Positions 13,574 through 55,436 of a stretch of 64,000 bases of DNA are shown piece by piece. Position 1 is the first letter of the stretch. The number at the start of each line of letters is the position of its first letter. The stretch comes from Actinopolyspora alba (GTDB lineage: Bacteria > Actinomycetota > Actinomycetes > Mycobacteriales > Pseudonocardiaceae): assembly GCF_900112765.1 (NCBI RefSeq), contig NZ_FOMZ01000004.1, positions 235,446 through 299,445 of the forward strand, written 5' to 3'. The notes under the pieces were generated by a model that worked only from the letters and a program-made list of their open reading frames with translations, was not told the origin of the DNA and did no database searches. A program made the position numbers and the translations under genes.

Positions 13574-13830
13574 GTGGCGGAACCTCTCGCACGGCTCTCG
13601 CTGCGGGGAGGCCCGACATCGGGTGGCGACCTACACGACGTCGGGCCTTCCTCGCGAGAGCCGCACCGGAGAACCCGCGGCGGTGCCGACCGCGTGAGTG
13701 GTGGGAGTTCCCCCTGCGGGCGTGGTGGGAGCTCGGCCCTGCGTCGATGGCGCGGCGATTTCGCGAGAAATCGACGGAGGCCGGGGCCGCGCTGCCGCAC
13801 TGGCCCGGCGATTTCGCGAGAAATTGACAC
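13574..13830 (+). repeat. Composite palindromic element, copy 1
   Basis: The long-hairpin module covers about 13574-13694. Its arms GGCTCTCGC..GAGGCCCGAC and GTCGGGCCTTC..GCGAGAGCC enclose the loop ATCGGGTGGCGACCTACACGAC. Two 18-bp hairpin cores follow: CGATTTCGCGAGAAATCG at 13756-13773 and a one-base variant at 13809-13826, 53 bp apart. The same order recurs at 27746 and 40761, and inverted at 19250 and 55130. It begins 34 nt after the dppF stop and may end that operon's mRNA. Confidence 0.85.
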
Positions 13831-13976
13831 CTACCCGGGCCGGACCACCCCTTCGTGGTGGGGGTTCGGGATCGGAACGGTATCGATCATGTCCCCGTTG
13901 GGATGACGTACGTTGCTCGGACGTCTCGTACCGGATTGACTGTGCTGGTGCCGATCGACCCGAACGGAGGTGTGTG

Positions 13977-14195
13977 GTGTCCGAGCTCTCGGAAAGCGAC
14001 CGGCTCGATCCGGAGCGGTTGAGTTGGAGCGTGCCGTGCCTGGACTCCGAAGACGACGACGCCGCCGGGGAGGTGAAGGTGCTGGTGCTCGGTGACCGGG
14101 TCGCCCTGGTGCTGCCACCGGGCGAGACCCTGGTGTTCACACCGGACGAAGCCGGTGAGTTCGCCAAGCTGCTGGGCACCTCGACCGGGCAGTGA
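13977..14195 (+). CDS. Small acidic hypothetical protein
   Basis: A 72-residue acidic protein starting at a GTG with GGAGG 6 nt upstream. It reads VSELSESDRLDPERLSWSVP, then an Asp/Glu-rich turn, then two beta-like strands (EVKVLVLGDRVALVLPPG) and a C-terminal helix (FTPDEAGEFAKLLG). No signal peptide, membrane segment or Cys cluster is seen (one Cys only). The C-terminal strand-helix pattern is loosely like the end of DUF397 proteins common in actinobacteria, but the typical Trp/Ser core is not clear. Function unknown. Its upstream region has TTGACT at 13936-13941, a possible -35. Confidence 0.65.
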   Translation: MSELSESDRLDPERLSWSVPCLDSEDDDAAGEVKVLVLGDRVALVLPPGETLVFTPDEAGEFAKLLGTSTGQ

Positions 14196-14238
14196 GCCAC
14201 CTTCCACCGGATCGCCGAGCCGGACGGCCGGAGTGCGA

Positions 14239-14260
14239 GTCGGCGGAACGTCCCGCCGAC
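14239..14260. terminator. Hairpin between the small gene and leuA
   Basis: An 8-bp inverted repeat GTCGGCGG / CCGCCGAC lies between two convergent genes and could serve as a bidirectional terminator. There is no T-run. Confidence 0.45.
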
Positions 14261-14294
14261 CGAGCACCCCGACCTCCTGAACGGGACGGTCCGC

Positions 14295-16178
<1,884 letters not shown>

Positions 16179-16184
16179 TTACCT

Positions 16185-16221
16185 CCGCGACGAGGGGCCG
16201 GTCTAACTGACCCCGTCGCGG
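16185..16221 (-). promoter_or_regulatory. Probable leuA attenuator hairpin
   Basis: A strong hairpin: CCGCGACG pairs with CGTCGCGG at the two ends of 16185-16221, extended inward by a GGGG/CCCC pair. The 5' arm (in the mRNA) overlaps the last codons of the leader peptide, so a ribosome stalled at the Leu codons would change its folding. This is the layout of ribosome-mediated attenuation. No U-run is visible, as is common in high-GC hosts. Confidence 0.65.
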
Positions 16222-16247
16222 CGGCAAAGCAGGAGGCTGAAAGTCAC
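16203..16247 (-). CDS. leuL: leuA leader peptide (proposed)
   Basis: A 14-codon ORF upstream of leuA: V-T-F-S-L-L-L-C-R-R-D-G-V-S-stop, with three consecutive Leu codons CTC CTG CTT. Leader peptides of this kind precede leu and ilv genes in actinobacteria. The GTG start lies 6 nt after TAGGCT (16254-16259 on the minus strand), a good actinobacterial -10 element, so the mRNA may be leaderless. A weaker -35-like TTGCGT lies 19 nt further up. Low leucine should stall the ribosome on the Leu triplet and favour leuA expression. Proposed from sequence only. Confidence 0.7.
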   Translation of the reverse strand: MTFSLLLCRRDGVS

Positions 16248-16478
16248 GAGGACAGCCTAACCGCACCCGGTGTCCAGAACGCAACCGCCTGTTCCGAATG
16301 CTGGACACCACGTTGCCCTGCCGCCGGATCGTCGCTCCGCGTTCCCGGTGGCCCGATTCGGGCGGGAGCCTCGCCCGGTCCGCGAACGGTGCCGCGACGG
16401 GCCGAGCACGGCAGCCGATCCGGGGAATCTCGCTGAACTGATCGCGGGCCGGCTGTTCCGATGCGGCAGGCTGGTGCC

Positions 16479-16766
16479 ATGGCTGCGAAGAAGACCAGTT
16501 CCGGGTCGGCCCTGGCGACCCTGCTGCAGGGGATCGGTTTCCTGCTCGCCGTGGTGCTGATCGCCCACACCGTGTTCGTGTTGTTCGACTTCCAAGCGGA
16601 TGGGCAGCTCGCGCAATCGGTCGCGCGCGCCGCCGAACCGCTCGCGTTGTTCTTCCCTGGACTGATCGACGCGCCGAGTCACGTGCTGCAGGTGTTACTG
16701 GACTACGGGCTGGCCGCGATGTTCTGGATGCTGGCGGGAGGTCTGCTGGGGCGGATCTTCGGGTGA
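16479..16766 (+). CDS. Small membrane protein, paralogue of the next gene
   Basis: A 95-residue protein with two membrane helices: GIGFLLAVVLIAHTVFVLF near residues 18-36 and YGLAAMFWMLAGGLLGRIF at the C-terminus. Between them lies an amphipathic segment with LALFFPGLIDAPSHVLQVLL. The N-terminus is short and basic. ATG 16479 is used; ATG 16461 is an alternative, and neither has a strong SD. The layout and several positions (the Ala-His pair in helix 1, the VLL-Y-G-A motif before helix 2) match the protein encoded at 16923, so the two look like a tandem duplication. Function unknown. Confidence 0.72.
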   Translation: MAAKKTSSGSALATLLQGIGFLLAVVLIAHTVFVLFDFQADGQLAQSVARAAEPLALFFPGLIDAPSHVLQVLLDYGLAAMFWMLAGGLLGRIFG

Positions 16767-16922
16767 GAACCAGGGTGCGGGAGCCGTGGGCGAACGCCGG
16801 AAAAGCGGTGGGGAACCGGCTTTTCGGAAGCGGAGGTCGGGTGCGTGGCCTCCCGCGTTCCGTCGCGCCGATGTTCGGCTACCCGCTGGTAATTTGATCG
16901 TGTTTCGTGTCACACTGCCGTC

Positions 16923-17303
16923 ATGTCCGAAGACGTGGCGGATCCGACGCGCACCTCCGCGACCAGTGGGCACCGTCGCCGGAAGTCCTTCGACTTCGCG
17001 CGGTTGTGGTCTCGCACGTGCGGTTCGCTCGCCACCGTGGTGCGCTGGGGCTGCTCGTTGGCGGCCGCGCTGCTGACCGCGCACGTGGTGCTGACGGTCG
17101 GGGGCGCCAACCCGGAGAACGCGCTGACGCGTTTCGTGGCGGAATGGGCGCGGGCCTTGGCGTTCGGATTCCGCGACCTGTTCCTCAAACCCGAGCAACC
17201 GAAGCTCGAAGTGCTGCTCAACTACGGCATCGCGGCGATCTGCTGGTTGCTCGTCTCGGTACTTGTGGTGCGCCTGCTGCGCGCGCTGGGAGCCTCCCGC
17301 TGA
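16923..17303 (+). CDS. Small membrane protein, paralogue of the preceding gene
   Basis: A 126-residue protein: a cytoplasmic, Arg/Ser-rich N-terminus of about 40 residues, helix 1 (LAAALLTAHVVLTVGG), a loop with FVAEWARALAFGFRDLFLKP, and helix 2 (LLNYGIAAICWLLVSVLVV). The shared AH pair, the LA.F..LF segment and VLLNYGIAAICWL versus VLLDYGLAAMFWM show relation to the gene at 16479. ATG 16923 lies just after a region with a plausible promoter but no clear SD. It ends convergent to the lysR-family gene. Function unknown. Confidence 0.75.
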   Translation: MSEDVADPTRTSATSGHRRRKSFDFARLWSRTCGSLATVVRWGCSLAAALLTAHVVLTVGGANPENALTRFVAEWARALAFGFRDLFLKPEQPKLEVLLNYGIAAICWLLVSVLVVRLLRALGASR

Positions 17304-17378
17304 GCCGCGGGTGATTCCTCGCGGGATCCACGGCGACGTTCGGGGAGTAGTGCGTTCCCGAACGGGAGTCCGGGCCGC

Positions 17379-18344
17379 TCACCAGGATCCTGCCACCCGG
17401 AGCAGTTCCTGCCGCACCAACGTCACGTGGTGGTTCTCCGTCGCGTCCGCCCGCTGGGCGAGAAACAGGGTGTTGACGGGAGGAGCCGTCGGTTCCGGGA
17501 GATCCACCAACTCCCCGGCGGAGAGTTCGGACTCGCACAGGTAGCGGGGCAGCACCGTGAGTCCTGTCCCGGCCGCAACCGTCGCGAGCATCGCCCGCAG
17601 ATCGGGTACGACGATCCCGGCCCGCTCGGTGGGCCGGGTGCCGAAGACGTGGCGCCAGTAGTGCCGCGTGAGGGCCAGGTCCTCCGCGTAGGCGACCAGG
17701 GGAATGCCGTGCAGTGGCGTGGGGTCGCCGCCCCGCAGCCGCGTGCGGTCGACGTGTGCCGCGATCGCCGGTGCGCAGACCAGTACCAGCTCCTCGTCCG
17801 CCAGCGGGACCGCGTTGACGGCCCTCCCCCGGGGACGGGCGACCGAGAGCACCAGGTCGAACCTGCCGCTGCGCAGGCCGCCCAACAGGTCCTCGGCCAG
17901 GCCGAAGGTGGCCCTGATCCGGACTCCGCTCCCCAGCACCGGTGCCAATGAGGGCAGCACTCGAACACTCAGCAGTTCGGCGGGACCCGCCACGTGCACC
18001 GGTTCGATCGGTGCGGGCGGTTCGTTCCGGTCCGGTTCGGCCACCGAGGCCAGTTCGTCGAGCGGACCGGCCACTTCTGAGGCCAGCTCCGCTGCCGCGG
18101 TGGTCGAGGCGACACCCCGTGGCAGTCGTTCGAACAGGGGCGTGCCGAGCTGCTGTTCCAGCGCCCGGATCCGGGTGGTCACTGTGGACTGCGACAGTCC
18201 CAGCGCCCTGGCCGCCGCCGTGAGTGACCCGGCCCGGTGGACGGCCAGGAACGTCCGCAGCTGGGACAGCTCGAGCGGCGCATCGCCCGGTTTCCGGGTC
18301 ACGTCGAGCCGCCGGGACGAATCGCTACCCGAGTGGTGGAACAT
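17379..18344 (-). CDS. LysR-family transcriptional regulator
   Basis: A 321-residue regulator. The winged helix-turn-helix begins at LELSQLRTFLAVHRAGSLTA (about residue 26) and has the typical QSTVTTRIRALEQQLGTPLF recognition region. A periplasmic-binding-like effector domain follows (about 115-315). The ATG at 18344 gives a 25-residue leader before the HTH, longer than usual; a GTG at 18302 would shorten it to about 10. It lies downstream of a nitroreductase gene on the same strand (197 nt gap), so it may control that gene rather than being divergent from its target, as LysR genes often are. Effector unknown. Confidence 0.85.
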   Translation of the reverse strand: MFHHSGSDSSRRLDVTRKPGDAPLELSQLRTFLAVHRAGSLTAAARALGLSQSTVTTRIRALEQQLGTPLFERLPRGVASTTAAAELASEVAGPLDELASVAEPDRNEPPAPIEPVHVAGPAELLSVRVLPSLAPVLGSGVRIRATFGLAEDLLGGLRSGRFDLVLSVARPRGRAVNAVPLADEELVLVCAPAIAAHVDRTRLRGGDPTPLHGIPLVAYAEDLALTRHYWRHVFGTRPTERAGIVVPDLRAMLATVAAGTGLTVLPRYLCESELSAGELVDLPEPTAPPVNTLFLAQRADATENHHVTLVRQELLRVAGSW

Positions 18345-18541
18345 GGCGCAGAGACTATTGCGCGATCGGAGGAATTACTAACGCCTTTCGGGGACAGGCG
18401 TACCACGATTTGGGATGCGGTGTCATGCCTCGAAAGTGGAGTCCGGTGCCGGTGCGCTCCGGCGCGTCCGGTGGGAACAGCGGTTTCGACCGGCGGCGGG
18501 CCGATCGGTACCGCGAGTGCGCGGCACCGATCGGAGACCGA

Positions 18542-19129
18542 TCAGAAAGTTGGTTCCTGCCACGAGTCGCTGAACACGAACTCGGTGAGCGGGATGCGAC
18601 TGCGGGGTGCTGACTCCTTCTCGCGGAGTCGCTCGGGCAGCTGTTCGGCGTCGCCGGGGGCGCCGACGGCTATCACGACCATCGGTTCGTAATCGGCGGG
18701 AATACCGAACGCCTCCCGGGCGGCGTCCCGGTCGAACCCGGCCATCTGGTGCGCCACCAGTCCCTCGCCGACCGCCTGCAGCACCAGGTTCTCGGTGGCG
18801 AGCCCGAGACCGTACTCCCCGTAGGGAAGCGTCTCGCCGTCGTCGTTGGTCAGTTTGGTCACGCCGAGAACGAGGGCCGACGCGTTACCGGCCCAACCGT
18901 GATTGCCCCTGGAGAGCGTGCCGCGCAGTTTGTCGAAGGTCGACTCCCCTCGACGGCCCGCGATGTAGCGGGCGGGTTGCGTGTTGCCCCAGGACGGGGC
19001 CCAGCGTGCGGCTTCGAACAGTGCGGTGAACTGCTTGTCGGTCAGTTCGACCTCGGGATCCAGTGCGCGCGGGCTCCATCGCTCGGCCAGCAGCGGGTGG
19101 AGCGGGACTGACGAGTCGGCGGGTTTCAA
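18542..19129 (-). CDS. Nitroreductase-family FMN oxidoreductase
   Basis: A 195-residue FMN-dependent NAD(P)H oxidoreductase. The family pattern is seen in LLAERWSPRALDPEVELTD (FMN phosphate-binding Arg-Ser-Pro-Arg region), FEAARWAPSWGNTQPARYI, and the C-terminal GIPADYEPMVVIAVGAPGD. Such enzymes reduce nitro groups, quinones or enones, and the real substrate is open. TTG 19129 is preceded by GGAGG at 4 nt. A composite palindromic element lies immediately upstream (19250-19468), so its promoter must sit in the 120 nt between the two or beyond the element. Confidence 0.88.
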   Translation of the reverse strand: MKPADSSVPLHPLLAERWSPRALDPEVELTDKQFTALFEAARWAPSWGNTQPARYIAGRRGESTFDKLRGTLSRGNHGWAGNASALVLGVTKLTNDDGETLPYGEYGLGLATENLVLQAVGEGLVAHQMAGFDRDAAREAFGIPADYEPMVVIAVGAPGDAEQLPERLREKESAPRSRIPLTEFVFSDSWQEPTF

Positions 19130-19249
19130 GGTTCCTCCGTGGCCTCTCGGCGCTCACGTACCGCCCTCGATTCTCCCGAACTCGTCGCTACCCGACGTCG
19201 GGCACCCGCTCACGAGATGTCGAGTGGTTCCGTCCCGGCTTCGGAGCGG

Positions 19250-19468
19250 CGTCGATTTCTCGCGAAATCGCCGCGCCGCTGGGCGAGGGACCCGGTGCGT
19301 GAGGCGGTCCGGCCCGGGTGGCCGTCGATTTCTCGCGAAATCGCCGCGCCCTTGGCACCGCGATGCCGCACTCCGGCCACCCTCGCGATCGGCACCGCCG
19401 CGGGTTCTCCCGTGCGGCTCTCGCGAGGAAGCCGCAGACGTTGTGTAGGTCGCTACCCGGCACTGTCG
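19250..19468 (-). repeat. Composite palindromic element, copy 5 (inverted, one long arm missing)
   Basis: Read on the minus strand, a partial long-hairpin module (19468-19388) keeps one arm and the loop motif GTAGCGACCTAC, but the other arm is lost or diverged. Two hairpin cores CGATTTCGCGAGAAATCG follow at 19326-19343 and 19255-19272, 71 bp apart. It lies downstream of the glycosyltransferase gene that ends at 19642. Confidence 0.75.
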
Positions 19469-19507
19469 ATAACGAAGCGACTATCCGGGTAAGCAGCGCA
19501 CGAGTCC

Positions 19508-19608
19508 CCGGTGCGTGAGTCGGATGCATTGCAAGGCAGGGCCGCTCGCCGCGTAGGTCGCTACTCAAGAGCCGGCCCAACGCGGCAAGGCGCCGACTCA
19601 CGCACCGG
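19508..19608. repeat. Palindromic module T, copy 1
   Basis: Perfect 16-bp inverted repeats CCGGTGCGTGAGTCGG (19508-19523) and CCGACTCACGCACCGG (19593-19608) enclose a 69-bp interior containing GTAGGTCGCTAC, the same motif found in the loop of the long-hairpin module. A nearly identical copy is at 41042-41142 and half an arm at 53356-53373. Confidence 0.85.
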
Positions 19609-19641
19609 CTAACCGGCCCACTACCGAAGTGCCGGCAATAG

Positions 19642-20892
19642 CTAAAACGCGTAGGGCCAGACGGTGAGTGCGTACGCGCTGAACCAACTCCCGAAGCACA
19701 CGAAGATCCCCACCCCGGCGAGCATCACCGGTCGACGCCGCGCCGCGAGTCCCATGGCCAGCGGGAGCAGCAACGGGAAGGCGGGCAGCAACGCCCGTGG
19801 TTTGGCGAACATCAGCCCGTCGGTCCCCAGCACGAACACCACTGTCAGCAGCGCGTACAAGCCCAACGGCCAGGCGATCCGCCGATCCAGACAGCAGATC
19901 AGCAGCGCCACCGCGCCCAGCAGGATCCACGCGGCGAAGGTCACGAACGTCGACTCGTCGGTGGACAGGGCCTTTCCTATGAAGCGCGCGGTGGCGATCC
20001 CGCCGTCGGGCGAGGAGGACCAGCCGTCCTGCCGCACTTCGAAGTAGCCGTCGAACTCGCCGGTGCGCAGGCCCACCCAACCCAGGTAACCGAGCAGCCC
20101 GCACGGAGCCGCCAGCAACGCGACCAGCGGGCGGTTGCCCTCGCGTCGGTACAGCAGCGCCACGACGGCGGCCAGCATCACCACCGCGATCAGCGCCGCC
20201 CCCGTGTGCCGCACCGTCCCGGCCAGGGCGCAGGCCACGCCGACTTGGATCCACCGCCGTTCCAGTACTCCCAGCAGCGTCCAGACCGCCAGCGCGCAGA
20301 ACAGCGACTCGCTGTAGGGCATGGACAGCACGATCGACATCGGGGCTGCCGCGAACAGCGCGACCAGCACCAGACCGGTCCGTTGCGAGCCGCTCACGAT
20401 TCGCCCCAGCCTGGCCAGCCCGTAGGCGCACGCGAGTCCCGCCGCGAGGTTCACCAGCATCGCCGCGGTGGGCGGGTCGACACCGGGCAGGAACGCCACT
20501 CCGCGGGTGAGCATCGGGAAGCCGGGGAAGAACGCCAGCACGGATTGGGGGTCGGCTTCGCCGCTGCCGTTGAGTATCCGCTGCCCGGTGGGGGCGTACC
20601 CGCTCTCGGCGATCCGCAGGTACCAGTCCGAGTCCCAGGAGAAGAGGTGCTCGCTCGGCGACCGGTCGTGAATCCCGGACAACACGCCCAGCACCAGCAA
20701 TCCGACCAGCCTGACTATGACATATACCACAGCAGGCCCGGCTATTCGTGCCGGAGAAGGGCCTTCGTCGCCGCCCACGAGCGCTCGTGGGCGAATGCGA
20801 ACGAGATCTTTCACTCTTCGCGCGGCGGAAAATTCACTGCTTCCCCGCGGCACTGTCCCGATCGTTTCGTCGGTCGCGGACAAGTGGTGCAC
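19642..20892 (-). CDS. GT-C-type (PIG-V-like) membrane glycosyltransferase
   Basis: A 416-residue polytopic membrane protein with about ten helices. After a soluble N-terminus of about 50 residues and the first helix comes the outer-face motif FSWDSDWYLRIAESGY, typical of PIG-V/GT-C mannosyltransferases that use polyprenyl-phosphate sugars. Later FFPGFPMLTRG and the conserved AAPMSIVLSMPYSESLF segment also fit. The start is taken as GTG 20892; the first 45 residues are not family-like and a later start is possible. Donor, acceptor and linkage cannot be told. Monocistronic, followed by palindromic module T. Confidence 0.78.
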   Translation of the reverse strand: MHHLSATDETIGTVPRGSSEFSAARRVKDLVRIRPRALVGGDEGPSPARIAGPAVVYVIVRLVGLLVLGVLSGIHDRSPSEHLFSWDSDWYLRIAESGYAPTGQRILNGSGEADPQSVLAFFPGFPMLTRGVAFLPGVDPPTAAMLVNLAAGLACAYGLARLGRIVSGSQRTGLVLVALFAAAPMSIVLSMPYSESLFCALAVWTLLGVLERRWIQVGVACALAGTVRHTGAALIAVVMLAAVVALLYRREGNRPLVALLAAPCGLLGYLGWVGLRTGEFDGYFEVRQDGWSSSPDGGIATARFIGKALSTDESTFVTFAAWILLGAVALLICCLDRRIAWPLGLYALLTVVFVLGTDGLMFAKPRALLPAFPLLLPLAMGLAARRRPVMLAGVGIFVCFGSWFSAYALTVWPYAF

Positions 20893-21220
20893 CTTCTTCG
20901 TCGAGCCTGGATCGGCGCGGGTGCCGCGTCGTAGCCAGGCTAGTCACGCCAAACGGCTATCGGGCCGCGGGGGGCTGGTTCTGTAGGCTGGGCAGGCAGC
21001 GGAACGGCCTGGTGAAGGCACCCGACGAAGGTTCGTGACCAGTTCTTCGGACCTCGGGGCGCGGCGAGGTGTTCGGATCCCTAACACACGGCACGATCGA
21101 GTGATCACTGCCCGGGGACGCGGACGGCGTCACGCTGCCGGCTGCCCGGCCGTCCACCCGGTGTCAGTGCGGGGCCTCTCGCACCCGGGGCGTCCGCGCG
21201 GCTCGAGGAGGTTTGTTCAG
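20893..21220. other. Intergenic region upstream of ask
   Basis: 328 bp between divergent genes. TAGGCT at 20986-20991 is a candidate -10 for ask, implying a leader of over 200 nt. An AGGAGG lies at 21206-21211. I see no recognisable riboswitch, and the six-frame reading gives only an open extension of the ask frame. Confidence 0.4.
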
Positions 21221-23563: not shown

Positions 23564-23584
23564 CCGCTTCACACTGAGCCGGGC

Positions 23585-23623
23585 GGTGGCGATTTCGCGC
23601 GAGATTCACGCGAGGTCGCCACC
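23585..23623. repeat. Hairpin repeat left of the Uma2 gene
   Basis: Outer arms GGTGGCGA / TCGCCACC enclose TTTCGCGCGAGATTCACGCGAGG. A second copy, one base different in the interior, is at 24282-24318. The GCGATTTCGCG segment is shared with the 18-bp core of the composite elements. It follows the asd stop and can act as its terminator. Confidence 0.75.
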
Positions 23624-23695
23624 CGAACGGATGGTAGTCCCGCCACAGGGGTATTGAGCCGGTCGGTAGATGTCGACACTGGAGGCATGACCGCG

Positions 23696-24265: not shown

Positions 24266-24281
24266 CCGACCGACCCTGCGA

Positions 24282-24318
24282 GTGGCGATTTCGCGCGAGA
24301 TTCACGCGGGGTCGCCAC
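24282..24318. repeat. Hairpin repeat right of the Uma2 gene
   Basis: Direct copy of the element at 23585 (GTGGCGA ... TCGCCAC with the interior TTTCGCGCGAGATTCACGCG). It begins 16 nt after the Uma2 stop. Together the two copies frame the gene in direct orientation. Confidence 0.75.
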
Positions 24319-24443
24319 CGGCCGTTCCTCCGAACGGGTGCTCACCCCGACAGCCGCGTGCCGGAATCGAATCCGCTCCGTCGTCGTTGTGCCGTGTGTC
24401 TCGCTCGTCGGAACCAACTCGTTCGTGCGGATAGGTTGGGGGT

Positions 24444-27745: not shown

Positions 27746-28005
27746 TTGGCGGAACCTCGCGTGCGGCTCTCGCTGCGGGGAGGCCCGACGTCGTGTAGTA
27801 ACTACCCGATGTCGGGCCTCCCCGCAGCGAGAGCCGCACGGGAGAACCCGCCGTGGTGCCGACCGCGTGCGTGGTCGGAGTGCGGCTCGCGAGGGTGGTC
27901 GGAGTTCGCCCTGCGTCGAAGCGGCGCGGCGATTTCGCGAGAAATTGACGGCCACCCCAGGCCGGACCGCCGTACCGGGGTGTCAATTTCGCGAGAAATC
28001 GAGGC
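27746..28005 (+). repeat. Composite palindromic element, copy 2 (perfect 29-bp arms)
   Basis: The long hairpin has perfect 29-bp arms at 27761-27789 and 27811-27839 around a 21-nt loop (GTCGTGTAGTAACTACCCGAT). The 18-bp hairpin cores lie at 27930-27947 and 27984-28001, 54 bp apart. Relative to copies 1 and 3 the inner part (arm end plus loop) is inverted, as if flipped by recombination between the arms. Confidence 0.88.
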
Positions 28006-28210
28006 CGCCCGATCGGGGGGTAGGCCCCCACCACCGGGGAGCCGGGACCAAGGGCGAGCGCCCGGCCCCGAGGAAGCGCCGAAACCAGGCACAGCGCCGA
28101 AACCGGGCACAGCACCGACACCGGCCCTGCCCCGGTGCCTCGTGAACCGTGGCGGATGTCGCGTCCGTCACGGTTTTCGCACGATCGGTGGTCGTTCTTC
28201 GAATGTTTTC
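28006..28210. other. Non-coding stretch before the Fur-family gene
   Basis: Contains four imperfect copies of a GCGCCGAAACC-type repeat (28076-28125: CGCCGAAACCAGGCACAG, CGCCGAAACCGGGCACAG, CACCGACACCGG). No convincing gene is seen. Confidence 0.5.
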
Positions 28211-40760: not shown

Positions 40761-40990
40761 TGGCGGAACCTCTCGCACGGCTCTCGCTGCGGTGCCCCGA
40801 CATCGGGTAGCGATCTACACAACGTCGGGGCCGTCCTCGCGAGAGCCGCACGCGAGAACCCGCGGCGGTGCCGACTGCGAGGGTGGTCGGAGTTCGGACT
40901 GCGTCGATGGCCCGGCGATTTCGCGAGAAATCGACGCCAGCTGGGGCCACACCGCCGCACTGGGGCGTCAATTTCGCGAGAAATCGACGC
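40761..40990 (+). repeat. Composite palindromic element, copy 3
   Basis: The long hairpin at about 40774-40852 has arms GCACGGCTCTCGCTGCGG.. and ..CCTCGCGAGAGCCGC, with loop ATCGGGTAGCGATCTACACAAC. Hairpin cores are at 40916-40933 and 40969-40986, 53 bp apart. It starts 33 nt after the luxR-family stop. Confidence 0.85.
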
Positions 40991-41041
40991 CCCAGTATCA
41001 CCCCTCGGGAAGTGACCATGAGCGACGCAGCGGGATCGTCC

Positions 41042-41142
41042 CCGGTGCGTGAGTCGGATGCATCGCGAGGCAGGGCCGCTCGCCGCGTAGGTCGCTACTC
41101 AAGAGCCGGCCCAACGCCGCAAGGCGCCGACTCACGTGCCGG
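41042..41142. repeat. Palindromic module T, copy 2
   Basis: CCGGTGCGTGAGTCGG (41042-41057) pairs with CCGACTCACGTGCCGG (41127-41142). The interior contains GTAGGTCGCTAC at 41087-41098 and is nearly identical to copy 1 at 19508. A minus-strand fragment of the long-hairpin module (outer arm plus GAGAGGTTCCGCC) follows at 41181-41209. Confidence 0.85.
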
Positions 41143-41243
41143 CTAACCGACCACCGCGCCAGAGCGGCCGAACCAGTAACGCAGCGAGAGCCGTACGAGA
41201 GGTTCCGCCGAGCGACCAGCTACGCACGCCGCGCCCGGGAGCT

Positions 41244-43774: not shown

Positions 43775-43802
43775 TTTCCGTCACACATCGAGTGTGGAGG
43801 CG

Positions 43803-44006
43803 ATGACGGTGCGAAAGATCGCCGATTGCAGGGAAACCCCCAGCGTCATGAACTGCACGCTGACGATCACCGGTGAGGAGAACGAGGTGGTGCGGGCCGC
43901 GGCCGAGCACGCGGTCTCGGTGCACGGCCACGAGGACAGCGAGGACCTCCGCGAGATGATTCGCGGTTCGCTCAAGGACGAACGGAGCTCCACCGCCACC
44001 GGCTGA
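43803..44006 (+). CDS. DUF1059 small protein
   Basis: A 67-residue DUF1059 protein. The pattern is clear: KIADCRE near the start, MNCTLTITGEENEVVRAAAEHA, then VHGHEDSEDLREMIRGSLKDE. The two Cys and the conserved HxxxxHG could bind a metal, but no activity is known for the family. ATG 43803 has TGGAGG just upstream. The last 78 bp of this gene (43929-44006) are duplicated at 46965-47042 on the far side of an ABC transporter cluster. Confidence 0.88.
   Translation: MTVRKIADCRETPSVMNCTLTITGEENEVVRAAAEHAVSVHGHEDSEDLREMIRGSLKDERSSTATG
43929..44006 (+). repeat. 78-bp direct repeat, left copy (3' end of the DUF1059 gene)
   Basis: Compared base by base with 46965-47042 it differs at five positions of 78. 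The similarity fades over about 16 bp beyond the stop codon. The two copies are in direct orientation and enclose about 2.96 kb. Confidence 0.9.
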
Positions 44007-44079
44007 CGTCCGGAGCGGCGCCGAGCCCGCGAACACCCCTGGGGAGGGGCCGGAATCCCGCACGGATCCGGTAGGGGAC

Positions 44080-46914: not shown

Positions 46915-46958
46915 GCGGTACAGCCCCTTTGAATCTGTTGATCACCCCGGCGGTCCGA

Positions 46959-47042
46959 GTGTGTCACGAGGACAGCGAGAACCGCCGCGAGATGATTCGT
47001 GGTTCGCTCAAGGACGAACGGAGCTCCACCGCTACCGACTGA
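46959..47042 (+). pseudogene. 3' remnant of a DUF1059 gene
   Basis: 28 codons in frame: VCHEDSENRREMIRGSLKDE and then RSSTATD-stop. They match the last codons of the intact gene at 43803 (5 base changes in the final 78). The first two thirds of the gene are absent. It has no start signal and is probably not translated. Confidence 0.88.
46965..47042 (+). repeat. 78-bp direct repeat, right copy
   Basis: Right-hand copy of the repeat at 43929-44006. It marks the far boundary of the inserted ABC transporter segment. Confidence 0.9.
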
Positions 47043-47050
47043 TGTTCGAA

Positions 47051-47092
47051 GCGGTGCCTCGTACATTTCGCGAGAAATGTACGAGGCACCGC
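47051..47092 (-). terminator. Long perfect hairpin with GCGA loop
   Basis: 19-bp perfect stem GCGGTGCCTCGTACATTTC / GAAATGTACGAGGCACCGC around GCGA (47070-47073). It sits 39 nt past the end of the flavin oxidoreductase gene and shares the ATTTC-GCGA-GAAAT centre with the composite elements, while the outer stem is unrelated. Confidence 0.8.
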
Positions 47093-47130
47093 TCCGGCAT
47101 CGTGCCGGTGTCCGGCCGGTGGGGTGGCGG

Positions 47131-48192
47131 TCAGCGCGCCGCCCGCTCGTACTGCTTCGGCCAGGGCGAGTCGGCCCGCAGCCGGTCGGCCGCGTGCAGC
47201 GGCCAGTGCGGGTTGCGCAGCAGTTCGCGCGCGAGCAGCACCGCGTCGGCCGAGCCCGAGGCCACGATCTCCTCGGCCTGCTCCGGGGAAGTGATCATCC
47301 CCACGGCCCCGGTGGATACCTTCCCCTCCTGGCGGATCCGGCGCGCGTAGGGCACCTGGAAACCGGGCCCGACCGGGATGGAAACCCCGGGTTCGATTCC
47401 GCCCGAGGACGCGTCGATCAGGTCCACGCCGCGCTCGGCCAGCAGCTCGGCCAGCCGCACCGAGTCGTCGCCGGTCCAACCGCCCTCGACCCAGTCGGTG
47501 GCCGAGAGCCGGGCGAACAGCGGTTTGCCCGCGGGCCACACCGCGCGTACCGCCTCGGCGATCTCCAGCGCCAGCCGTGTCCTGCCCTCGAAGTCGCCGC
47601 CGTACTCGTCGGCGCGGTCGTTGGCCAGCGGGGAGCAGAACTGGTGCACCAGGTAGCCGTGCGCGAAGTGCAGCTCGATCACGTCGAAGCCCGCCTCGTC
47701 GGCCCGCCGGGCCGCGGCGGCGAAGTCGGCGGGCAGCGCCGCGACCTCCTCGGTGCGCAGCGCGCGCGGCGCGGCCAGCTCACCGAACGCCCGGTCGGTG
47801 GAACTCACCGTCGGCCATCCGCCCGCCGCTTCGGGCACGGCGTCGTCGCCGTTCCAGGGAGCGTTCGCCGAGGCCTTGCGACCGGCGTGGGCCAGTTGCA
47901 CGCCCGGCGTGGCGCCCTGCGCACGCAGGAAGTCGGTGATCCTGCGCCACGCGGCGACCTGTTCGTCGTTGTACAGGCCGGTGTCGGCGGGGCTGATCCT
48001 GCCTTCCGGGACCACGGCGGTCGCCTCGCTCAACACCAGCCCGGCCCCTCCGGTGGCGAACTGCCCCAGATGAACCAGGTGCCAGTCGTTCGGGACACCT
48101 TCGGTGGCCGAGTACTGACACATGGGGGCGACCCAGGCGCGGTTCCTGATTTCGATGTCGCGGAACTTGATCGGTTCGAACAGCATGCTCAC
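47131..48192 (-). CDS. Old yellow enzyme family NADH:flavin oxidoreductase (YqjM type)
   Basis: A 353-residue FMN-dependent ene-reductase. The thermophilic-like YqjM subclass is indicated by the redox Cys in VAPMCQYSA. QLAHAGRKAS binds the flavin and the active-site pair lies in ELHFAHGYLVHQF (His-x4-His). SVRLAELLAERGVDLIDASSGG and the late GMITSPEQAEEIV segment belong to the barrel. GTG 48192 and ATG 48186 are both possible; no strong SD. It probably reduces activated C=C bonds, with an unknown natural substrate. Confidence 0.92.
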   Translation of the reverse strand: MSMLFEPIKFRDIEIRNRAWVAPMCQYSATEGVPNDWHLVHLGQFATGGAGLVLSEATAVVPEGRISPADTGLYNDEQVAAWRRITDFLRAQGATPGVQLAHAGRKASANAPWNGDDAVPEAAGGWPTVSSTDRAFGELAAPRALRTEEVAALPADFAAAARRADEAGFDVIELHFAHGYLVHQFCSPLANDRADEYGGDFEGRTRLALEIAEAVRAVWPAGKPLFARLSATDWVEGGWTGDDSVRLAELLAERGVDLIDASSGGIEPGVSIPVGPGFQVPYARRIRQEGKVSTGAVGMITSPEQAEEIVASGSADAVLLARELLRNPHWPLHAADRLRADSPWPKQYERAAR

Positions 48193-48289
48193 GACTGTTG
48201 GGACAGCACGACGGAACGGAGTATTCCGCTACGTCGCCCGTGTCGTCCTCGTCACTCCGGAACCGCGCCGGGCTCAGGCCGTTCCGGGC

Positions 48290-49216
48290 TCACGGCATCG
48301 AGCTCGCCACACGTCCGAACGCCTCGGTGAGCAGGTCCCAGAAAGCACGCTGGTCGAGCGCGGTGGCCACCAGCGCGTTGTGGTCGGCTTCCGGGGCGAA
48401 GTCGGTGACCGTCATCCCCGAGGTGAACCGACCGGAGGTCTCCACATCCACCCGGGCGCGCACCGTGGTGAACAGTTCCGGCGCGATCACGTGCGCCACC
48501 GCGCACGCGTCGTGGATGGCGGGCCCCTCGTCCCGGTACTGCCGATTGCTGCCGTAGAAGTCCAGGCAGGGGGAGAGCAGTTCCTCCTGCAACTTCCCCA
48601 GCCCGACGAAGCGTTGCCTGACCTCGGCGGTCGCCCTCGCCTGGTGCGTCAGGTCGAGCCCGAACATCACCGGCTCCCACGGCGCGTCGAAGACCACGCC
48701 GGCCGCCTCCGGGTCGGCCCCGATGTTGAACTCGGCCGCCGGGGTGAGGTTGCCACGCGTGTAGGAACCACCCATGACGACGAACTCGCGCACCCACTCG
48801 GCCAGCCTGGGTTCCTTGCGCAGCGCCAGTGCGACGTTGGTCAGCGGCCCCACGGCCACCAGGCTGATCTCGCCGGGGGACGCCGCGACCGTGTCGATGA
48901 TGAAGTCCACCGCGTGCCGCGTATCAGGCTCGGACTTCGCCGTGGGCAGCACCACGTCGCCCAGGCCGGTGGCACCGTGCACGGTGGAGGCCGTGTCCGG
49001 CGCGCGCAGCAGCGGTCGGTCGGCACCGCGAGCCACCGGCACGTCCATGCCGTAGAACTCGGTCAGGCTCAGCGCGTTCGGCGTGGTGTGCTCCAGCCCC
49101 ACGTTGCCCGCCACCGTGGTTATCCCCGCGACCTCCAGCCCGGGCGAACCGTGCGCCAGGGCTATCGCCAGCGCGTCGTCGATGCCGGGATCGCAGTCCA
49201 GCAGGACCCGTTTCAA
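48290..49216 (-). CDS. Inosine-uridine-preferring nucleoside hydrolase
   Basis: A 308-residue nucleoside N-ribohydrolase. The calcium-binding signature DCDPGIDDA starts at residue 8. Also seen are AVGPLTNVALAL, FVVMGGSY, AEFNIGADPEAA and the C-terminal DACAVAHVIAPELF with its Asp ligand. It splits ribonucleosides to base and ribose in salvage. The TTG start at 49216 has AAGGG 8 nt upstream. It follows the Fic-like gene by 43 nt on the same strand and may be cotranscribed. Confidence 0.92.
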   Translation of the reverse strand: MKRVLLDCDPGIDDALAIALAHGSPGLEVAGITTVAGNVGLEHTTPNALSLTEFYGMDVPVARGADRPLLRAPDTASTVHGATGLGDVVLPTAKSEPDTRHAVDFIIDTVAASPGEISLVAVGPLTNVALALRKEPRLAEWVREFVVMGGSYTRGNLTPAAEFNIGADPEAAGVVFDAPWEPVMFGLDLTHQARATAEVRQRFVGLGKLQEELLSPCLDFYGSNRQYRDEGPAIHDACAVAHVIAPELFTTVRARVDVETSGRFTSGMTVTDFAPEADHNALVATALDQRAFWDLLTEAFGRVASSMP

Positions 49217-49259
49217 CCTCTCAACCCTTCGTCTCCTGGTACGACTTCGCCACCCCGGA

Positions 49260-50018
49260 TCACCCGACGGAGTCGGCGATCGACTTCGCCTCCTTGGAAC
49301 CGGTCTCCAACGAGCGGCAGCAGTACACGATCCAGGCGGTCACGCCATCGCTCTCACCCGAGGCGAACCCCGCCGCGGCCGAAGCATACTCCTGCTGCCT
49401 GCGAAAATGGGCCACTTCCGGGACGACGAGTCCCTTGGGGTCCAGGCCGCTGCCGATCACGGTCAGGCGCGCCGCCGCTCGCGCGATCACCCCGTCGACC
49501 TCACCGAAGGGGGCCAGCGCCAGCAGTTCCCCGTGCACCACGGCGGCCTGCACCGGACCGGGCACGGTGCCCTGCGCCTGCCCGCCGAGCTCGGTGATCA
49601 TCCTGGCCAGCAGGTCCAGCCGTGTCGAGACCTCCGGGTCGGCGCGCGGACGCCCGAGGCGTTCCTGCTCGTCCACCCCCACGAGATCGGCCGCGGCCAG
49701 CACGTGCAGCCGGGCCAGGGCCTGCAGCGGTGCGCGTTGCCAGGTCGGCAACAGCGGCCCCAGGGCTTCCGCCACCCGCAGTGAGCCCGCCAGCAGCGGA
49801 TCGGTGACCTCGCCGCCCTCGGGGATCTCGGTGGCTCCACCGGCCACCGCCGCGGAGGCACGCGCCGCACGCACCGAAGCCTCCGCCGCCGTGGTCGCCC
49901 AACCCCTGCGGTTCGTCGGGTGTTCGTGGACCTCGTCGATCGCGGCCCTCGCCGCGTCGACGGCCTCCGACACACCAGGGAGCCCCACCAGCGGACGTAG
50001 CGATTCCTGCGCGTTCAC
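49260..50018 (-). CDS. Fic-fold protein with degenerate active site
   Basis: A 252-residue, Ala-rich helical protein. Near residues 168-179 the sequence APFGEVDGVIAR lines up with the Fic motif HPFx(D/E)GNGRxxR: Pro, Phe, the acidic residue, the second Gly and the last Arg are kept, but the catalytic His is Ala, Asn is Asp and the first Arg is Val. The following ARLTVIGSGLDPKGLVVPE fits the next Fic helices. The N-terminal (S/T)xxxE inhibitory helix is also changed (RASAAVAGG). AMP transfer therefore looks unlikely. Homologues are often labelled simply oxidoreductase, which the sequence does not support. Upstream of the nucleoside hydrolase gene. Confidence 0.65.
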   Translation of the reverse strand: MNAQESLRPLVGLPGVSEAVDAARAAIDEVHEHPTNRRGWATTAAEASVRAARASAAVAGGATEIPEGGEVTDPLLAGSLRVAEALGPLLPTWQRAPLQALARLHVLAAADLVGVDEQERLGRPRADPEVSTRLDLLARMITELGGQAQGTVPGPVQAAVVHGELLALAPFGEVDGVIARAAARLTVIGSGLDPKGLVVPEVAHFRRQQEYASAAAGFASGESDGVTAWIVYCCRSLETGSKEAKSIADSVG

Positions 50019-50148
50019 GGGTCCAGACGCTACCCGTCCGTTCGGACGACGCCGTACCCCTCCGTGCCGCTGCTCACCAGCGGCCTTCGATAAGAGGAAC
50101 TCGTCCCGGCACGAGTCCCCGGCAGACGGGCCCGTGCACTGTCGCGCG

Positions 50149-50712
50149 CTATGAGCCCACCAGTTCGAGCAGCTTCGACACCGTGTTCCAGTTCCGGGTG
50201 GTCGCGACGGTGTTCCCCAACACGGCCGGCCGGGTCAGGGCGTCGGCGAGCCCGGATCTGCCGATGCCGTCCGGAAGGTACATGTAGATCACCCGGTCGC
50301 CGAGCCGGAACCGCTCGGGGTGGAAGCCCGCCGGGTCGATCGTGGTTGTCCGTTCCTCCGGAAGCCGATGGGACAGGAAGCTCGCGTGCAGGAGTTTTCC
50401 GTGTCCCGCGGCCTCCGGGAAGGGATTGCCCGCCACGACCTCCCGCAGATAGCCGGCTTCGCGGACCAGGCACGACACGTGCGCCCCGAACCGTCGTTCG
50501 ATCCCGCGTTCCAGCAGTTCGCCCAGGGCCGATTCGTCGCCCGAGTCGTGGCTGAACACGAGGTTGCCGCTGTTGAGGTGGCTGCGCACTTCCTCGAGGC
50601 CCAGCTCCAGGGCGAGTTCCCGCAGTCCCGCCATGTCGACCCTGGTTCGCCCGCCGACGTTCACACCGCGCAACAGCGCGACGTAGCGGGTGTTCGTTCC
50701 GGTGGTGCTCAC
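50149..50712 (-). CDS. DUF1697 family protein
   Basis: A 187-residue DUF1697 protein. The family start is YVALLRGVNVGGRTRVDMAG, followed by LELGLEEVRSHLNSGNLVF and the C-terminal TTRNWNTVSKLLEL. Function unknown for the family; the fold is a small alpha/beta domain. GTG 50712 is used. It is divergent from acs across a long spacer. Confidence 0.88.
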   Translation of the reverse strand: MSTTGTNTRYVALLRGVNVGGRTRVDMAGLRELALELGLEEVRSHLNSGNLVFSHDSGDESALGELLERGIERRFGAHVSCLVREAGYLREVVAGNPFPEAAGHGKLLHASFLSHRLPEERTTTIDPAGFHPERFRLGDRVIYMYLPDGIGRSGLADALTRPAVLGNTVATTRNWNTVSKLLELVGS

Positions 50713-51326
50713 GCTCGCACCGTATCCCGAGGGGCCGACTTCGCCGGGGCTTCGAGGTCCGTGTGCCTACGGGGAGTTCCGCGATTTCACGGTGAGTTAC
50801 GTGGCTCCACCGGGATCCGGGCTCCACCGGGATCCGACGAGTGTCGTGGAAGTTCGGACGGGGCGCGACAGCGGTGCACGAGCAGTGTTCTCGTCTTGCT
50901 CTTCTCCGGGCATACTCACCTGAACGTGGGTAATTGTTCCGAGTGAGCATGTATCACTCGGTGACGTCCGTTTCAGGGGGTTCCGGTTCGCCGTGCGTGG
51001 CTAGGCCGAAGGGGATCACGCGCTCGTGCGCTACTCGTGCGGGGTATTCACAGTTGCCGTCACAGCGGCCAGAATCGTGGCGACAGCGGATGATCGGTGC
51101 CGTTCACGTGCGACTGATGTAGTGCGTTTCGCATTCGTGCGGCTTAGGATCGACACGCGGAGGCGATGCCGCCCCGGTCTTTCGAGGAACGTCTCCGGGG
51201 AGACTGGATCCCCCCGGAAAAATTGGTCTCAACCTTTGCTCGATTCCCTCTATCGAATTAAGCCGAATCCCACTACGGTTCGGCTACAGACAGAGCTGTA
51301 GCAGCAGCGACGGAGGTTCGACACCG
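50713..51326. other. Long intergenic region upstream of acs
   Basis: 614 bp without a convincing gene. It contains an 8-bp palindrome CCGAGTGA / TCACTCGG (50939-50946 and 50954-50961, 7-nt gap) and a small hairpin GCCGAA / TTCGGC (51262-51267 and 51279-51284) just before the acs SD. The palindrome is CRP-like in half-site (GTGA..TCAC) but has 7 rather than 6 central bases. The distance suggests regulated expression of acs. Confidence 0.5.
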
Positions 51327-53306
<1,980 letters not shown>

Positions 53307-53355
53307 GAGCGGGACCGCGTCGGCTCGGTCGGAGTAGCGGCGCGGCCTCGCGATG

Positions 53356-53373
53356 CATCCGACTCACGCACCG
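53356..53373 (-). repeat. Half copy of palindromic module T
   Basis: ATCCGACTCACGCACCGG matches one arm of the T module (19593-19608), with GCGATGC before it as in the T interior. The other arm and the interior are missing. Confidence 0.7.
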
Positions 53374-53384
53374 GGTTCCCCGGC

Positions 53385-53426
53385 GCAGTGGCGCGGCGAT
53401 TTCCCACGAAATCGCCGCGCCACTGC
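53385..53426 (+). terminator. Terminator after acs (19-bp perfect stem)
   Basis: GCAGTGGCGCGGCGATTTC pairs perfectly with GAAATCGCCGCGCCACTGC around the loop CCAC. The CGATTTC..GAAATCG centre is that of the repeat family, with a different loop and a stem extended on both sides. Confidence 0.85.
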
Positions 53427-53861
53427 CGTGCCGGCGGCTGAGCGGTAGGGCAGGTCCGATTCCGTCGGGGTCCGATAAGTGCCGTCGGGGCGGTTAGTCC
53501 CGATTCGGGCTCGCGTCGCCGAGCGGGGTGGAGCCCCCGGAGTGCCTTCCGCGACAGGCGATCCCGGATGCCGCTCGATTTTTCTCACATCCCGGATGTT
53601 CATCCGCCTACCCCCGAATGGTTGCTCCAGGGGACCGCATTGGAGCGATCCACCGAAATCCCAGTTCACAGCGGGTTCAGTTGTGGATTAACAACTTTTT
53701 CTTCGGTTGGCAACCCCCGGCCCCGTCGCCGGCCCGCCGGCGTCGCCATGCCGGTCTCGATGGGGCGGAACGGACCTTTTCCCGTGTTAAGCTCAGCCGC
53801 GGGGCGAGCCGGAAAACGGTCATTGTGGAGTACGTGACGTAACAATCTCAGGAGCACCTCC
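53427..53861. other. nhaA upstream region
   Basis: 435 bp without a gene. Near the nhaA start an inverted repeat TACGT-G-ACGTA (53831-53841) lies within ATTGT..ACAAT outer arms (53822-53826, 53842-53846), ending just before the SD (AGGAG, 53850-53854). It could be an operator or a 5' UTR hairpin. The stretch at 53680-53710 is AT-rich. Confidence 0.45.
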
Positions 53862-55085
53862 GTGGCGAAATCGCAGCGCAACCGATCACAACGGTCCGGC
53901 GCCCCGGAGGCTCGGGGGTTCGACTTCGGTTCGTACCTGCGAAACGAAACCGTCGGTGGCATGTTCATGCTCGCCGCCACGGTGATCGCGCTGGTGGCCG
54001 CCAACTCCCCGGCATCGCACCTTTACGCGGCGGTTCGTGACTTCACGATCGGTCCGCACTTCCTGCACCTTGACCTCACCGTGGGGGAGTGGGCCAAGGA
54101 CGGTCTGCTGGTCATCTTCTTCTTCGTGGCAGGACTGGAGCTCAAGCGCGAGCTGGTCCTGGGGGACCTGGCCGACCGCAAGAAGGCCACGCTTCCGGTG
54201 CTCGCCGCGCTCGGCGGCATGATCGTGCCCGCCGTGCTGGCTGTCGCCATCGGACACGGTGCGCCCGGCGCCGCCCAGGCGTGGGCGATCCCGGTGGCCA
54301 CCGACATCGCCTTCGCGCTCGGTGTGCTCTCCCTGACAGCCTCGGCCATGCCCACCACCGCCCGCGTCTTTCTGCTCAGCCTCGCCGTGGTGGACGACCT
54401 GGGGGCCATCATCGTCATCGCGGTGCTGTTCACCAGCGGGATGAATCTGATCGCGCTGCTGGTGGCGGTGCTGCTCTGCGTCGGTTACTGGTACGCCCAG
54501 CACCGCCGCATTCGGACCTCGTGGCTCTACGTGCCGCTGGCTGTGGCCACCTGGGTCGCGGTGCACAGCAGCGGAGTGCACGCCACGATCGCCGGTGTGG
54601 CGCTCGGCCTGCTCACCAGGGTTCGTCCCGATCCCTACGAACATGCCTCGCCCTCGATGCGGCTGGAACACCGGTTGCAGCCGTGGTCGGCCGCCCTGGT
54701 GGTGCCCGTGTTCGCGCTGTTCGCCGCCGGTGTTCCGGTCGGGCTGGACGCGCTCAGCAGCGTCTTCCAGGACCGGATCGCGATCGCGGTCATGGTCGGG
54801 CTGGTGGTCGGCAAGCTGATCGGGATCTTCGGTACCTCGTTCGTCGCCATCAAGCTCGGGTTCGGCAGTCCACCGCAGGGGGTAACCTGGAATGACCTGT
54901 TCGCGCTGGCGATGCTGGGTGGTGTCGGCTTCACCGTCAGTCTGCTGATCGCCGATCTCTCGCTGGCGGGAGCGGCGGCCGATCGGGCCAAGGCAGCCGT
55001 GCTGATCGCCTCCGCGTTCGCCTCGATCGTGGCCACGTTGATGCTGGTCTTCCGCAAGCAGCACAGCTCAACGCACACGACCTGA
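53862..55085 (+). CDS. nhaA: Na+/H+ antiporter NhaA
   Basis: A 407-residue antiporter with about 12 helices, exporting sodium in exchange for protons. The ion-binding Asp-Asp pair is in LAVVDDLGAIIV, and the assembly of discontinuous helices is seen around VATDIAFALGVLSL and LGGVGFTVSLLIADL. The N-terminal 25 residues are basic and cytoplasmic. GTG 53862 has AGGAG 7 nt upstream. Monocistronic; a composite palindromic element follows its stop. Confidence 0.95.
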   Translation: MAKSQRNRSQRSGAPEARGFDFGSYLRNETVGGMFMLAATVIALVAANSPASHLYAAVRDFTIGPHFLHLDLTVGEWAKDGLLVIFFFVAGLELKRELVLGDLADRKKATLPVLAALGGMIVPAVLAVAIGHGAPGAAQAWAIPVATDIAFALGVLSLTASAMPTTARVFLLSLAVVDDLGAIIVIAVLFTSGMNLIALLVAVLLCVGYWYAQHRRIRTSWLYVPLAVATWVAVHSSGVHATIAGVALGLLTRVRPDPYEHASPSMRLEHRLQPWSAALVVPVFALFAAGVPVGLDALSSVFQDRIAIAVMVGLVVGKLIGIFGTSFVAIKLGFGSPPQGVTWNDLFALAMLGGVGFTVSLLIADLSLAGAAADRAKAAVLIASAFASIVATLMLVFRKQHSSTHTT

Positions 55086-55129
55086 GCTTCTGGTTTTTCC
55101 CAGTCGTTTCGCGTGGCGATGCTGGTGGC

Positions 55130-55436
55130 GTCGATTTCTCGCGAAATCGCCGCGCCGGTGCGGCGATGCGCTCCTGCGGGCGTCGATTTCTCGCGAAATT
55201 GACACCCTCGAGCAGCGGGAGCGCTCCGGCTCCGTCGATTTCTCGCGAAATCGCCGCGCCGCTTCGACGCGGGCCGAGCTCCCGCCAACCCCGCAAGATG
55301 AACTCAGGCCACTTACGCAGTCGGTACCGCCGCGGGTTCTCCGGTGCGGCTCTCGCGAGGACGCCGGAGACGTTGTGTAGGTCGCTACCCGATGTCGCCG
55401 GACCCGCAGCGAGAGCCGTGCCAGAGGTTCCGCCAC
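55130..55436 (-). repeat. Composite palindromic element, copy 4 (inverted, three hairpin cores)
   Basis: Hairpin cores (as CGATTTCTCGCGAAATCG on the plus strand) at 55132-55149, 55184-55201 and 55236-55253, exactly 52 bp apart. The long-hairpin module follows in inverse orientation at about 55318-55435, with loop motif GTAGGTCGCTAC at 55377-55388. This copy follows nhaA but points toward it, unlike the other four, which are oriented away from their upstream gene. Confidence 0.87.

Follow-up and report, generated by a model that had tools for sequence, protein, structure and literature searches.

A REP-like repeat family of Actinopolyspora with a conserved core that may be read by a host protein

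A 64,000-nucleotide stretch of the Actinopolyspora alba genome (contig NZ_FOMZ01000004.1, positions 235,446 to 299,445; here called the window) carries composite palindromic repeats behind genes, and these belong to a genome-wide family whose repeated unit appears to be a 22-bp near-palindromic DNA site with the half-site GKCRATTTCKC. The unit is present in high copy number, lies between genes with a bias toward gene 3' ends, has a core that changes far less than its flanks and arms that vary independently of each other, and thins out from the origin toward the opposite pole of the chromosome. The family is a repetitive extragenic palindromic (REP)-like repeat with a probable protein-binding core. 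Our leading explanation, held tentatively and with somewhat less than even confidence, is that repeat amplification scatters 22-bp sites between genes and that selection then keeps them as the site of a dimeric host protein that reads double-stranded DNA. The protein reader, its dimeric state, and its identity are what we infer from these patterns, and the first candidate would be a ParB/Noc-like protein.

Copy number and taxonomic range

The window was scanned for the 18-bp core CGATTTC-GCGA-GAAATCG with at most one mismatch on the motif strand, and 11 cores were found in five elements, against 0.02 expected by chance and with none of 100 shuffled sequences giving as many. The repeats in the window are real, and all five elements proposed by the first-pass annotation, which was made from the letters alone, were recovered. 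The family extends beyond the window: the 14-bp centre ATTTCGCGAGAAAT has 310 exact copies in the A. alba genome (5.24 Mb, 42 contigs), divided 144 to 166 between the strands, and its reversed control has none. With up to four mismatches allowed in the 22-mer, 136 cores were found in 864 kb, again with no match to a reversed control. In 724 kb, 84 exact cores formed 66 elements, 49 of them with a single core, 16 with two, and 1 with three.

Exact cores were present in six of ten genomes of a genus-level sample (310, 237, 219, 161, 28, and 28 copies), and an order-level sample gave matches in 4 of 249 genomes, A. alba included, all from one genus. A 22-letter pattern matched only A. alba among 396 genomes of a phylum sample (0 of 395 others), and a scan of named genomes returned at least 64 stretches, all of which were from Actinopolyspora among the matches listed (A. 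righensis, A. mzabensis, and one A. xinjiangensis). Within the sampled genomes, the repeat family is confined to Actinopolyspora. At gathering thresholds, Rfam matched only the signal recognition particle RNA and one tRNA in the window, leaving the repeat unmatched, and one element (window positions 13560 to 13850) had no match in plasmids or phages. Neither an actinobacterial REP family nor a description of Actinopolyspora repeats appeared among the listed results of open-access literature searches.

Conservation of the core at orthologous sites

We surveyed 52 A. alba elements from three regions for their orthologues in two relatives, G251 and G180 (in one region, G251 covered 120 of 180 kb). 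In G251, 30 elements were present, 4 were degraded, 7 were absent, 9 had no anchor, and 2 were rearranged; the corresponding numbers in G180 were 34, 3, 7, 6, and 2. Most comparable elements were therefore inherited rather than recently inserted.

At these sites, the core changed little. Between G251 and G180, the 14-bp centre differed at 2 of 210 positions over 15 solo sites with good flanks, whereas the flanks differed at 79 of 956 (P = 1.7e-5); this comparison omits sites where the core was lost in both genomes but is far less biased than those involving A. alba, where the core is exact by the way the sites were selected. The latter comparisons, made over solo sites in two regions, gave 3/182 in the centre versus 78/674 in the flanks against G251 (n = 13), 4/224 versus 75/829 against G180 (n = 16), and 2/56 versus 33/208 against a third relative, G200 (n = 4). 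In a three-genome set, 20 of 66 exact A. alba cores were comparable (27 had no alignable orthologue, 14 were gapped within the core, and 5 had poor flanks), and lineage-specific changes fell on 5 of 280 centre positions and 173 of 1,977 flank positions (P = 5e-6). That the core is under constraint, changing far less than its flanks at orthologous solo sites in a manner suggestive of a protein site, is the best-supported addition of this work.

One core position behaved differently. Position 14, the Y after GAAAT (window positions 13772 and 13825, for example), carries C or T in all but one of the 84 exact copies. It differed from A. alba at 11 of 20 solo sites in G251 (flanks, 12%) and at 8 of 23 in G180 (flanks, 9%). 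This position, nearly randomised between species, prompted the idea that cores are conserved by copying between loci, which we dropped because the other variable positions (-3, -1, and 8) changed at only 0 to 2 of the sites compared. A hypermutable TCGA or AAATCGA context was not a general explanation either: the C/T difference at TYGA between A. alba and G251 was 0.7%, and AAATYGA differed at 2 of 22 places outside cores versus 13 of 29 within cores against G251 and at 2 of 16 versus 9 of 26 against G200.

The 18 core-containing rows among the insertions and deletions were mostly gains or losses of a 51- to 53-bp core unit or larger changes bounded by short repeats, and in none of them had a solo core been cleanly inserted with a target duplication. 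One of them, a 154-bp difference (C20:143932), had a 7-bp repeat at its bounds and apparently coding DNA, and we read it as a deletion in the other genomes.

Position relative to genes and pairing of the arms

Genes were called with a custom script, which placed 79% of random positions inside genes. Of the 66 elements in 724 kb, 65 were intergenic and one overlapped a gene, so that the frequent copies within genes that would have spoken against an intergenic family were not seen. By gene context, 36 were tandem, 20 convergent, 9 divergent, and 1 overlapping. Convergent gaps were favoured (20/65 versus 16% expected; P = 0.0035) and divergent gaps less used (9/65 versus 22%; P = 0.08). When approximate cores were included, 80 elements were divided into 44 tandem, 24 convergent, 10 divergent, and 2 overlapping (P = 0.0017 for convergent and P = 0.035 for divergent), and 33 of the 44 tandem elements lay closer to the upstream stop codon than to the downstream start codon, bearing out the proposed preference for gene 3' ends. 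The first-pass annotation had also noted that the motif shares the sense of the upstream gene in four of the five elements; this holds for the window, but the preference is weak among tandem elements at large, with 23 tandem elements in the same sense versus 13 in the other (P = 0.13, not significant), 27 versus 17 with approximate cores, and 13 versus 12 within 100 nt of a stop codon.

The location behind stop codons would suit an RNA element, namely a hairpin capped by the GNRA tetraloop that was first read in the core and acting at the 3' ends of mRNAs to stabilise or terminate them. Several features of the motif strand agree with it: the 22-mer folds better on that strand (mean, -7.0 kcal/mol) than on the other (-5.3 kcal/mol), G.T combinations outnumber A.C by 54 to 13 (a single position accounting for 47 of the 54), and the clustered cores (n = 79) show pairing of an outer stem that none of 2,000 permutations equalled. 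This last signal may be one of inheritance, since cores within a cluster share a common origin, and the solo cores (n = 57) showed no pairing outside the 22-mer over permuted flanks (911 of 2,000 permutations as high). Within the core, double changes in the two arms were no more frequent than expected under independence (6 seen versus 6.8), so there was no excess of compensatory changes, and the two R positions varied independently between the arms (73, 47, 10, and 6; Fisher P = 1.0). Together with the weak orientation relative to genes and the 9 of 66 elements between divergent genes, these results weaken the RNA reading, which we consider improbable.

The variability was also mirrored between the half-sites (rho = 0.68, P = 0.02). 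Because the core is conserved while its arms vary independently, a double-stranded DNA site for a dimer is a better match than a hairpin in RNA, and the balance of the data favours two equivalent GKCRATTTCKC half-sites that would be read on double-stranded DNA.

Chromosomal distribution and comparison with Noc and parS sites

The distribution along the chromosome was analysed in G251, which is a single contig of 5.03 Mb with dnaA at 3.594 Mb; the terminus was taken by geometry as the pole opposite dnaA. Of the 237 exact cores, the tally used the 151 that have CGGCG in front of them, and these formed 143 elements. Per fifth of the distance from dnaA, the elements numbered 41, 54, 32, 14, and 2, with a marked depletion in the fifth opposite dnaA (2/143; P = 9e-12). 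The motif strand followed the replication direction, again defined geometrically, in 97 of 151 cores (P = 0.0006). In another relative, G250, all 28 exact cores were distributed as 8, 12, 2, 5, and 1. Between about 0.65 and 1.65 Mb of G251 contig 1, opposite dnaA, the listed cores and the long hairpins A described below were nearly absent.

Because the sites lie behind genes rather than at promoters and thin out from the origin, a chromosome-organising protein would be a likelier reader than a gene regulator. The available text of PMC7383237 gives the Noc site consensus as the 16-bp palindrome TATTTCCC-GGGAAATA and describes noc genes as confined to Firmicutes, and it reports, as does that of PMC8429893, that Noc sites are absent near the terminus. 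The half-site of the core agrees with the Noc consensus at six of eight positions (the first and seventh differ), and the spacing of ATTTC to GAAAT is 4 bp in both. The core resembles Noc sites in its ATTTC-N4-GAAAT arms, in the inner C of both halves, in its wide spread, and in its loss opposite the origin, which hairpin A shares. It differs from them in its centre (GCGA rather than CCGG), its longer conserved flanks, and its 310 exact copies located almost only between genes, and no Noc protein was found in 3.5 Mb. Compared with parS, given as TGTTTCAC-GTGAAACA in the sources as far as available, the core shares the TTTC-N4-GAAA arms but has A rather than G as the second half-site base, and the cores are spread over the chromosome.

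In G251, five exact parS sites (GTTTCACGTGAAAC) surround parB near dnaA, in the origin region, the only locus with exact parS among 250 examined. The product of this parB scored 221.5 bits with the Noc model (cut-off, 315) and 209.7 bits with the ParB model (cut-off, 58.45); it is below the first cut-off and above the second, so we take it for an ordinary ParB. The Noc reading of the core is speculative. That the 22-mer is a ParB/Noc-type site, belonging to an Actinopolyspora nucleoid-occlusion or chromosome-domain system outside Firmicutes whose sites were spread by a REP-like repeat, strikes us as unlikely, if worth stating; actinobacteria are described in the available text of PMC3989709 as controlling division although they lack recognisable homologues of Min and Noc.

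Repeat architecture and comparison with REP and MITE families

The layout first seen in the five window elements, a long hairpin followed by two or three cores, was rejected as a general rule, with 49 of the 66 elements in 724 kb having a single core and 34 having no long hairpin within 300 bp; it is one arrangement among several. Hairpin A was found at 35 loci in the 724 kb, with a core within 300 bp at 27 of them, and hairpin C at 15 loci, with a core nearby at 12. Hairpin A preserves its pairing through covariation, with 810 of 844 cells paired (0.96 versus 0.89 in shuffled alignments, with a shuffle maximum of 0.91), and hairpin C showed no covariation above shuffles. Hairpin C has the sequence GTGCGTGAGTCGG...CCGACTCACG, and its apex, GTAGGTCGCTAC, is similar to that of hairpin A. 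Of the 18 core spacings in the 724 kb, six were 52 bp and four were 53 bp, and 15 of the 16 two-core clusters were direct (head-to-tail). Together with the tandem units of 24 bp and 52/53 bp, the long hairpins would build a mosaic like REPs and bacterial interspersed mosaic elements (BIMEs), one that grows and shrinks between short repeats.

REPs and BIMEs had been named as the closest known concept, and the location and mosaic build of the family bear this out; mobilisation by REP-associated tyrosine transposases (RAYTs), suggested at the same time, found no support. A six-frame search of the A. alba genome for Y1 transposases (E values up to 0.001) yielded no RAYT, and its sole match was an IS200/IS605 TnpA, which scored 146 bits with the IS200 model and 30.8 with REP_Tyr_transpos (cut-off, 80). 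Y1 matches and cores were also uncoupled across the genus: G062 carries 28 exact cores but gave no Y1 match, and G104 gave seven Y1 matches but has no exact core. About 1 kb downstream of the sole Y1 match lies a variant core with the centre CCGC (L034, 2840 to 2900), which we take for a separate copy. GTAG REPs, REPINs, and BIMEs that go with RAYTs are likewise mosaic intergenic repeats with regular spacing, but the present family has no GTAG foot, no RAYT was found, and its cores are not inverted pairs as a rule.

The cores are short palindromes in high copy, intergenic and near 3' ends, as REPs in general are (palindromes of 20 to 40 bp). The family could be an ordinary REP family near the CGTC-tagged kind, a short palindrome spread by an unknown or borrowed transposase that the host tolerates behind its genes and puts to no use, an explanation that we regard as quite possible but less likely than not. 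CGTC REPs are described in the available text of Di Nocera et al. (2013; PMC3733652) as having a CGTC, TGTC, or CCTC tag at one end, stems of 8 to 9 bp, AT at the first/second position, loops of 4 to 5, a CCA tail, dimers mostly of the HH type, and no dedicated transposase, and REPs are said there to occupy the gaps of unidirectional and convergent gene pairs, toward the 3' ends of the genes. The gene contexts counted above follow this location, no dedicated transposase was found here either, the loop of 4 fits, and the other strand of the core starts with CGTC in 63 of 84 exact copies and with TGTC in 6 (69 of 84 together). However, the stem is about 6 to 7 bp, the tail is GCCG in place of CCA, one base separates the tag from AT, and 15 of 16 pairs are head-to-tail at 52/53 bp, an arrangement that this source calls negligible; the host, moreover, is an actinobacterium, and Actinobacteria go unmentioned in the available text. 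The conservation of the core at orthologous sites would be hard to explain if it were inert, and the 18 core-containing indel rows lacked a clean solo insertion with target duplication.

A further explanation would make the repeats pieces of miniature inverted-repeat transposable elements (MITEs), with hairpin A as the ends and the cores as cargo. The proximity of cores to 27 of 35 hairpin A loci and the covariation in hairpin A agree with this, as does a 157-bp A module that G180 carries and that is absent from the window at 53343, the surrounding DNA matching. In contrast, 34 of the 66 core elements lack a neighbouring A or C, the core-containing indels examined occurred mostly at short internal repeats, and no transposase bounded by A ends turned up, although no systematic search for one was made. 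We consider this origin very improbable.

Observations weighing against a selected protein site

Several observations count against our preferred explanation of a site retained by selection for a dimeric host protein, or against its ParB/Noc form. Four of the ten Actinopolyspora genomes have no exact core; a looser pattern, GATTTCNNNNGAAATY, gave extra variant copies in G250 and G062, two places in G104, and one in G196; G249 and G208 had no match to it. The filters used for orthologues removed those with the core largely lost, and 7 of 41 comparable elements were absent in G251. Over all 136 sites, real flank pairs folded better than 200 of 200 permuted sets, through the 79 clustered copies. 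The likeness to Noc sites was noticed after the fact, and a search of 3.5 Mb of partly overlapping DNA, well under a whole genome, gave no ParB relative besides ParB itself. Finally, hairpin A follows the same gradient among the best matches listed, with 6, 5, 3, 1, and 0 per fifth in G250 (n = 15) and 16, 20, 10, 2, and 1 in G251 (n = 49; places picked by hand and without that at 3846153, close to dnaA), a few of the G251 places matching the query in its spacer or its hairpin C portion. Because hairpin A behaves alike, the gradient is a property of the repeats or of the region and not of the core alone, and it may reflect the region, for example, young DNA opposite the origin.

Layout of the repeats in the window

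The core scan and the repeat and hairpin analysis gave the following layout, in which 22-bp cores (GKCRATTTCKC inverted repeats) contain the 18-bp cores. On the plus strand, the first element has hairpin module A and the start of the spacer at 13574 to 13700 and cores at 13754 to 13775 and 13807 to 13828 (18-bp starts, 13756 and 13809), 53 bp apart; the 53-bp unit of the second core is missing in G180 and G200. The next element, on the minus strand, has cores at 19251 to 19272 and 19324 to 19345 (18-bp starts, 19253 and 19326), part of module A at 19370 to 19459 (family D12), and module C, the second long hairpin family (D7, unstranded), at 19493 to 19618. The element behind gntP, on the plus strand, has module A at 27746 to 27852 (I11) and cores at 27928 to 27949 and 27982 to 28003 (18-bp starts, 27930 and 27984), 54 bp apart; its hairpin arms, at 27748 to 27799 and 27801 to 27852, are 88% complementary, which confirms the long-hairpin module proposed earlier. 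Beside this element (28008 to 28121), G180 has about 3 kb of extra DNA, and G251 has it at the same place.

Also on the plus strand, module A at 40761 to 40863 precedes cores at 40914 to 40935 and 40967 to 40988 (18-bp starts, 40916 and 40969; spacing, 53 bp), where G180 has one core unit fewer, and these are followed by an unstranded copy of module C at 41027 to 41152 (family D7) and a lone module A arm on the minus strand at 41180 to 41209 (I10). The last element, on the minus strand, has three cores at 55130 to 55151, 55182 to 55203, and 55234 to 55255 (18-bp starts, 55132, 55184, and 55236), each 52 bp apart, and module A at 55302 to 55435. A variant core with the centre GTGG rather than GCGA lies on the minus strand at 53395 to 53416 (18-bp start, 53397) and adjoins a partial module C (53336 to 53386). 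The spacings of 53, 54, 53, and 52/52 bp stand as first given, and the odd element (19253 to 19326) has a spacing of 73 bp, not 71. Pfam supported four of the five upstream genes named at first (an oligopeptide ABC ATPase, GntP, a LuxR-type protein, and NhaA); the fifth, called by the script on the minus strand at 19642 to 20730, had no Pfam match at 1e-8.

Sequence comparison located the same 14-bp centre at 47061 to 47082 (plus strand) in a different, longer hairpin (47051 to 47092) with other outer bases, and G200 has other sequence at the place of this hairpin. Two 94-bp copies, at 43929 to 44022 and 46965 to 47058, are 90% identical and lie over the ends of reading frames.

Implications

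REPs are often viewed as selfish or structural elements. Here, a REP-like core is fixed at orthologous sites although the flanks beside it diverge, and its function is therefore directly testable through its binder. If that binder were ParB/Noc-like, it would offer a lead on how actinobacteria coordinate the chromosome and the septum. The family also provides an example of a repeat that spreads candidate binding sites across the chromosome within one genus.

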